Source: Oscillatoria sp. (GTDB taxonomy: Bacteria; Cyanobacteriota; Cyanobacteriia; Cyanobacteriales; Laspinemataceae). Taken from it: a DNA stretch of 64,000 nucleotides. The notes beneath the pieces are model-generated. The model had not been told where the DNA came from, ran no database searches, and saw nothing but the letters and a program-made list of their open reading frames with translations. The DNA lies in NCBI GenBank assembly GCA_011390515.1, contig JAABSJ010000001.1, positions 48,320 to 112,319 of the forward strand. The letters are read 5' to 3'. Of this stretch, positions 36,697 through 38,683 are shown in pieces (the stretch's first letter is position 1; every line of letters starts with the position of its first letter). Made by a program: the position numbers and the translations under genes.

Positions 36697-36888
36697 TAAG
36701 CGTTTTAGGGTAGCCTTTGAATCAGGCGCAGTAGGGTTAAAGGAAAAGATTCGTTAAGAATATCTTTAAATAGTACACCAAGACTGCACGGGAGTCCCGG
36801 TAGCCTTGTCTGTTTCCCTGGGGTTGGATGCATCAAAAAATCCTAGCCCTGTCAAGGTGGTAAATTTAATCACGAAAAATCGTTATTT

Positions 36889-36922
36889 CTTGTAGGGGCG
36901 CTTCTCGAAGCGCCCCTACAAG
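36889..36922. repeat. Perfect palindrome, 15-bp arms
   Basis: CTTGTAGGGGCGCTT-CTCG-AAGCGCCCCTACAAG. Confidence 0.95.
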
Positions 36923-36955
36923 AGGTAAATTTAATCACGAAAAATCATTGTTTCT

Positions 36956-37004
36956 TGTCGGAGTAAATGCTTGCGCCCCAAGGGCGCAAGCATTTACTCC
37001 GACA
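36956..37004. repeat. Repeat family 4: 49-bp perfect palindrome, 23-bp arms
   Basis: TGTCGGAGTAAATGCTTGCGCCC-CAA-GGGCGCAAGCATTTACTCCGACA; second copy at 38463-38511. Confidence 0.95.
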
Positions 37005-37008
37005 AATC

Positions 37009-37130
37009 ATACGGAATCCGGTTGTCAAAGGTCTGTAAAAACCCGCACCCTGAAGGGTGGGGCTATACGGACGAAGCCCGCCTGCGCGGGCTAAGAAAGA
37101 AAACCGACTTTTAACAACCGGATTTGGTAT
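37009..37130. repeat. Repeat family 3 copy
   Basis: ATACGGAATCCGGTTGTCAAAGGTC ... ACTTTTAACAACCGGATTTGGTAT imperfect TIRs; inverted relative to 38562-38683. Confidence 0.85.
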
Positions 37131-37371
37131 CAATACACCTTGACAGGGCTAATCAAAAAATCCTGAACTACTGCCAAAACTGACCTCGGTTGTCAGGGTT
37201 TTACCAATTTTGAGGCGGGATGGTGACGGGGAGGAAGATCTGGGAGTTCGGGGTTGGACTGTGCATCTTTGGCGGAGGTGTCCGCTGGGACCCCAATCAT
37301 AGCTTCACCCCCGACGGAAGCAAAAATTGACTTCTATCGAGGGCGATCGCCAGTGGGTTGAAGGGGTGAAT

Positions 37372-38325: not shown

Positions 38326-38460
38326 TTCGTAGTGACGCAACGGAGTAGCCCCGTCAATCGTTCGTAGTGACGCAACGGAGTAGCCCCGTCAATCGTTCGT
38401 GGTGACGCAACGGAGTAGCCCCGTCAATCGTTCGTAGTGACGCAACGGAGTAGCCCCGTC
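38326..38460. repeat. 35-bp tandem repeat, 4 units
   Basis: Unit TTCGTAGTGACGCAACGGAGTAGCCCCGTCAATCG; one unit has a single A to G change. Confidence 0.95.
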
Positions 38461-38462
38461 AC

Positions 38463-38511
38463 TGTCGGAGTAAATGCTTGCGCCCCTGGGGCGCAAGCAT
38501 TTACTCCGACA
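38463..38511. repeat. Repeat family 4: 49-bp perfect palindrome, 24-bp arms
   Basis: TGTCGGAGTAAATGCTTGCGCCCC-T-GGGGCGCAAGCATTTACTCCGACA. Confidence 0.95.
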
Positions 38512-38561
38512 GATACCTTTTTTGCAGAGACTCAGATCAAGGATGACGCTTGGATTTAATA

Positions 38562-38683
38562 ATACCAAATCCGGTTGTTAAAAGTCGGTTTTCGCTTTTA
38601 GCCCGCGCAGGCGGGCTTCGTCCGTATAGCCCCACCCTTTAGGGTGCGGGTTTTTATAGACCTTTGACAACCGAATTCCCTAT
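38562..38683. repeat. Repeat family 3 copy
   Basis: ATACCAAATCCGGTTGTTAAAAGTCGG ... GACCTTTGACAACCGAATTCCCTA; internal GCCCGCGCAGGCGGGC and CACCCTTTAGGGTG hairpins. Confidence 0.85.

Follow-up and report, generated by a model that had tools for sequence, protein, structure and literature searches.

The IS4 family of insertion sequences has been defined and its subgroups, IS4 and IS231 among them, have been reviewed (PMC2266710). Prokaryotic MITEs (reviewed in PMC10969869) are short, gene-less elements with terminal inverted repeats (TIRs) and a target duplication, and they share their ends with an autonomous IS. The mobile group II intron RmInt1 is at home in a multicopy transposable element, ISRm2011-2 (PMC4238363). 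We identified an element between the genes ado and aar of an Oscillatoria sp. that is almost certainly a MITE of an IS4-like IS with a second element nested in it, and whose parent is known from Oscillatoria sp. HE19RPO. This reading is based on the identical TIRs, the target duplications, the empty sites of sister copies and the parent IS itself.

The element lies in a 64-kb stretch of DNA (the window) on contig C1 of the host genome (G000), a 5.97-Mb draft in 376 contigs. It was placed between ado and aar in the first-pass annotation and indeed lies in their 675-bp spacer. Both genes are on the minus strand; ~135 bp separate the element from the aar ATG, which is downstream of it, and ~210 bp from the ado stop, which is upstream of it. 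Its parts, in window coordinates, are as follows.

36832-36843, no strand: left 12-bp target-site duplication ATCAAAAAATCC, an exact match to the right copy
36844-36859, plus strand: left terminal inverted repeat TAGCCCTGTCAAGGTG, with 74 perfect copies in the genome and the same as the ends of the parent IS
36859-36881, plus strand: module repeat 1, GGTAAATTTAATCACGAAAAATC, 23 bp, from direct-repeat comparison
36889-36922, no strand: palindrome 1 (CTTGTAGGGGCGCTTC / GAAGCGCCCCTACAAG), a hairpin on folding
36924-36946, plus strand: module repeat 2, the second 23-bp copy, 65 bp from module repeat 1
36955-37005, no strand: palindrome 2, with 24-bp arms that are 100% complementary and standalone relatives elsewhere in the genome
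37007-37009, no strand: left TCA duplication of the nested element, a triplet match with the right copy
37010-37129, plus strand: nested 120-bp family-3 element TACGG...TGGTA, an unrelated dispersed element; the empty version is found in the MITE copies L002 and L004
37130-37132, no strand: right TCA duplication of the nested element, a triplet match with the left copy
37136-37151, minus strand: right terminal inverted repeat CACCTTGACAGGGCTA, the exact complement of the left one
37152-37163, no strand: right 12-bp target-site duplication ATCAAAAAATCC, an exact match to the left copy

The perfect 16-bp TIRs, the perfect 12-bp direct repeats beside them, the two palindromes and the 23-bp direct repeats (36859, 36924) had all been described in the first-pass annotation, and each of them is real. 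An exact 16-bp inverted pair no more than 600 bp apart with an exact 12-bp flanking repeat is unique within the window, and this arrangement was found in none of 20 Markov-shuffled windows. The element is short (308 bp, or 185 bp without the nested element), and its interior had been considered to lack a credible ORF, which agrees with a longest frame of only 62 aa with a TTG start. The MITE interior is a gene-less series of ~65-bp palindrome modules, variable in number. Similar palindromes are also found outside MITEs, which gives the interior a separate history. At 38464-38512 of the window, a standalone perfect palindrome differs very little from palindrome 2 of the MITE and has no TIR nearby. 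It adjoins a tandem array (~38328-38460) with the unit CGTTCGTAGTGACGCAACGGAGTAGCCCCGTCAAT.

The exact TIR occurs 74 times in the host genome (41 forward, 33 reverse), compared with no occurrences of a reversed control. Among the assembled elements shorter than 600 bp (n=29, 97-447 bp long), 24 are flanked by a duplication of 10-13 bp with no more than two mismatches. The duplication is perfect in 13 and its sequence is different each time. By inspection only, the duplications tend to start with G and end with C around a T/A-rich middle. The TIR is also present in seven of seven congeners, with 1 to 152 copies in each. The first-pass annotation would have counted a lack of other genomic copies, together with an ancestral state in distant ado-aar spacers, as a refutation, which fails given these dozens of dispersed copies. 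The flanking repeats of one copy, L036 (G000:C31:5586-5768), are inverted and not direct (GTCTATAAAAAC / GTTTTTATATAG), a pattern that recombination or inversion between copies would leave.

We joined the flanks of 12 copies over one duplication and searched for the joined sequences in the seven congeners. Uninterrupted sites were identified for six copies other than the one at ado-aar. Four of these (L086, L091, L097 and L087) are clean with one target copy, with a few mismatches in L086 and L091, while small differences occur beside the target at the L085 site and mismatches within it at the L031 site. The empty sites of sister copies are direct evidence that insertion duplicates the target. 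An ado-aar spacer with a single ATCAAAAAATCC had also been anticipated in sister strains. However, no clean empty site at this locus was found among the congeners, because those without the element have rearranged spacers.

A parent IS was located among the PF01609 loci of the congeners. This IS (L175; G003:C508:186-2144, NZ_JAMXOT010000069.1), from Oscillatoria sp. HE19RPO, has a length of 1959 bp, with a perfect copy of the MITE TIR at each end and the 12-bp duplication GTTTTATCGCCC on both sides. Its transposase is an intact 468-codon frame with an IS4-like DDE. The ends of the MITE match those of the IS over 16-34 bp, while the interiors are without a match. An autonomous IS with the same TIRs, which the first-pass annotation had proposed to look for, thus exists in a congener and not in the host draft. 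Three right ends of the parent IS, 84-88% identical, are found in the host draft at the borders of contigs C325, C242 and C81, and its transposase gene is absent from that assembly. This absence, an end match of 16-34 bp only, the lack of a clean empty site at ado-aar and the similar palindromes outside MITEs count against our reading. The host's own PF01609 loci were rejected as parents, as none has these TIRs. A PDB sequence search with the transposase returned nothing relevant.

Homologous ISs with transposases 54-63% identical occur in five further cyanobacteria, all with the identical perfect TIR: Nostoc sp. CHAB 5836 (1454 bp, 10-bp duplication), Lyngbya sp. CCAP 1446/10 (1596 bp, 12-bp duplication), a Nostocaceae MAG (1507 bp, 11-bp duplication), a Microcoleus MAG (1499 bp) and Nostoc mirabile (1455 bp, frame broken). 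The exact end sequence is therefore kept between ISs whose transposases share only this degree of identity. More distant relatives have variant TIRs, for example CAGCCCTTTCAAGGTG and TACCCCTGTTAAGGTG, so the ends and the enzyme change together. A relative of the transposase is missing, at E <= 1e-5, from the complete genome G005, the congener with 152 TIRs, and the MITEs of this genome look to be orphaned now.

The composite is present at the same site in HE19RPO, where the flanking aar part is 98.2% and the ado part 96.6% identical. One TIR base is mutated in the HE19RPO copy. In addition, the left arm of its palindrome 2 carries palindrome 1 sequence (L216/L253, compared with window 36947-37005), which suggests conversion between the modules. 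The insertion had been judged recent from its perfect TIRs and repeats. These are indeed perfect, but the insertion is not very recent, as HE19RPO has the whole composite at the same site. The ado-aar spacers of three other congeners (G002, G006 and G007) are short, and that of G004 contains no copy. The G001 spacer contains the end of a different MITE copy (L255), and the ado-aar spacer has therefore been hit more than once.

Each of the two genes, ado and aar, has its own promoter in Synechocystis (PMC4094844). The aligned congeners share a conserved block of ~110 bp in front of aar, and the insertion is beyond that block. Given its position upstream of this conserved sequence, the element is probably neutral at this site. 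A sigma-70 scan identified nothing, and terminator-like sites were near chance.

The first-pass annotation treated the 308 bp as a single element with a complete family-3 repeat inside. The repeat is complete, but it is a separate 120-bp element and not part of the MITE proper, which is 185 bp long and was interrupted by an insertion that has a separate TCA duplication. The sister copies L002 and L004 have this length of 185 bp and a junction that reads GACAAATCAATACACC (one base allowed in L002), and the counterpart in the window is GACAAATCA-[TACGG...TGGTA]-TCAATACACC. Removal of the 120-bp element and one TCA gives the length of these copies (308 - 123 = 185 bp). Approximately 20 further family-3 copies are flanked by matching T-N-A triplets. 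The 3-bp TNA duplication of the nested element is one that we take to resemble those of the IS1031 group of the IS5 family. That the 308 bp form one element, with the family-3 part gained by internal evolution, is very unlikely. While the composite is found in both sister species and family-3 sequence occurs in several other MITEs, within the palindromes of L067, L075 and L082, its positions there are unlike that in the window. Moreover, family-3 has ends of its own and TNA duplications at the other places, and taking it out restores the exact sister form. The case of the MITE and family-3 shows that small elements nest in one another. The reverse nesting is seen at L038 (G000:C36), where a MITE copy lies within a family-3 element with the duplication GGCTATACGGAC. 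A second 120-bp family-3 copy is found at 38562-38683 of the window, on the opposite strand and upstream of ado. An Rfam match to CRISPR-DR28 within family-3 (36.4 bits, threshold 35) was dismissed as chance, as this is a dispersed repeat without an array.

The fold of the minus strand of the element is very strong (-173.6 kcal/mol, z -17), and the sequence recurs at this place in HE19RPO. Both would suit an intergenic structure of ancestral origin (a regulatory RNA or a terminator) with repeats due to chance or to local duplication. However, the TIRs and palindromes account for the fold, the sequence is missing from the spacers of the other congeners, dozens of copies elsewhere have different duplicated flanks, and sister copies have empty sites. 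We find such an origin barely conceivable, and the strong folding of this spacer is a caution against reading it as a regulatory RNA. It is extremely unlikely that the element is a REP/BIME-like repeat that owes its spread to the action of a Y1 transposase (RAYT, IS200/IS605-like) on the palindromes, with the TIRs as passengers. The interior palindromes are each preceded by short direct repeats, and similar ones stand alone elsewhere, as at 38464-38512, which is consistent with such a repeat. However, DDE transposition is marked by TIRs that are long and perfect, by duplications of 10-13 bp and by clean empty sites, and the owner of these TIRs encodes a DDE transposase. The REP/BIME idea may still bear on the origin of the palindromes.

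The element is thus real and well supported as a MITE of an IS4-like IS; it is a composite, and its age is greater than first assumed. The transposase would bind the TIRs and excise the element, which would be joined to target strands cut about one helix turn apart. Gap repair would then leave duplications of 10-13 bp, mostly 12. The parent IS of HE19RPO or a close relative would have moved the ado-aar copy. The 120-bp element, with its 3-bp TNA duplication, inserted into the MITE. Both insertions are older than the split from HE19RPO.

The most interesting part is the association of this MITE with group II introns in the relative G005. TIR-bounded units of 2.65-2.73 kb in this genome were considered as the autonomous element and rejected, as they carry group II introns instead, with an RT/maturase (TIGR04416) and domains V/VI (RF00029). 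All 15 copies examined of this lineage (L342-L356) occupy one and the same position in the MITE's palindrome module. The intron is preceded by AATGACGAA or ATGACGAA in 14 of the 15 and by AATGACCCC in one, and it is followed by AAAT in every case. One G005 MITE (L141/L344/L351) has two modules with an intron in each. The 23-bp repeat of the window is one base apart from the G005 integration site TAAATTTAATGACGAA^AAATC (C for G at -6).

EBS1 of L342 (TTCGTC) pairs 6/6 with GACGAA. The window's own genome contains an 88%-identical intron outside any MITE, L357 (G000:C310:18900-22100), whose EBS1 GTATGT pairs 6/6 with its own IBS1 ACATAC. Pairing is 5/6 in L347 and 3-4 of 6 in L356 and L358, and none was recognized for L360. 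Due to the poor fit in L356 and L358 and the lack of one in L360, retargeting of the intron is suggestive, not proven. There is perhaps an even chance that the MITE family serves as a dedicated, self-multiplying landing pad for this intron lineage. The EBS would be complementary to the MITE module, each MITE jump would provide a new intron home, and the IS4-like transposase may still move the MITE with the intron in it (~2.7 kb).

No paper turned up when the literature was searched literally for the TIR sequence, and searches on the MITE and the intron in Oscillatoria gave nothing specific. Within the scope of the searches made here, the MITE is apparently a new family member, and this cyanobacterial family now has a parent transposase and testable empty sites. 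Like other prokaryotic MITEs (PMC10969869), its members are short and gene-less, have TIRs and a target duplication, and share their ends with an autonomous IS. Unlike in those, the interior here consists of variable-number palindrome modules unrelated to the interior of the IS.

The parent IS resembles the IS4 family (PMC2266710) in its single ORF, its size, its 10-12 bp duplications and the spacing of both D-69-D-106-E and Y-2-R-3-E. The transposase matches PF01609 at 4e-10, its spacers of 69 and 106 are within D(60-110)D(100-150)E, and the duplications of 10, 11 and 12 bp at four ISs are about one helix turn. However, the lysine of Y(2)R(3)E(6)K is a threonine in the type copy, the ends TAGCCCTG match no tabulated subgroup consensus ends, and the curated model NF033592, although the best match by far, scores 95.7 bits against a cut-off of 115. 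We label the IS as IS4-like and do not file it as a member because the YREK lysine is missing and this cut-off is not reached; it is next to the classical IS4 family, not squarely inside it. The earlier proposal of an IS4-family transposase acting in trans came close: it agrees with the IS4-type DDE, the identical TIRs and the 10-12 bp duplications, but not with the absent lysine. The introns of G005 resemble RmInt1 in ISRm2011-2 (PMC4238363) in that a mobile group II intron is at home in a multicopy transposable element. However, RmInt1 interrupts a transposase gene, whereas in this one genome the examined intron copies all sit in the module of a gene-less MITE.
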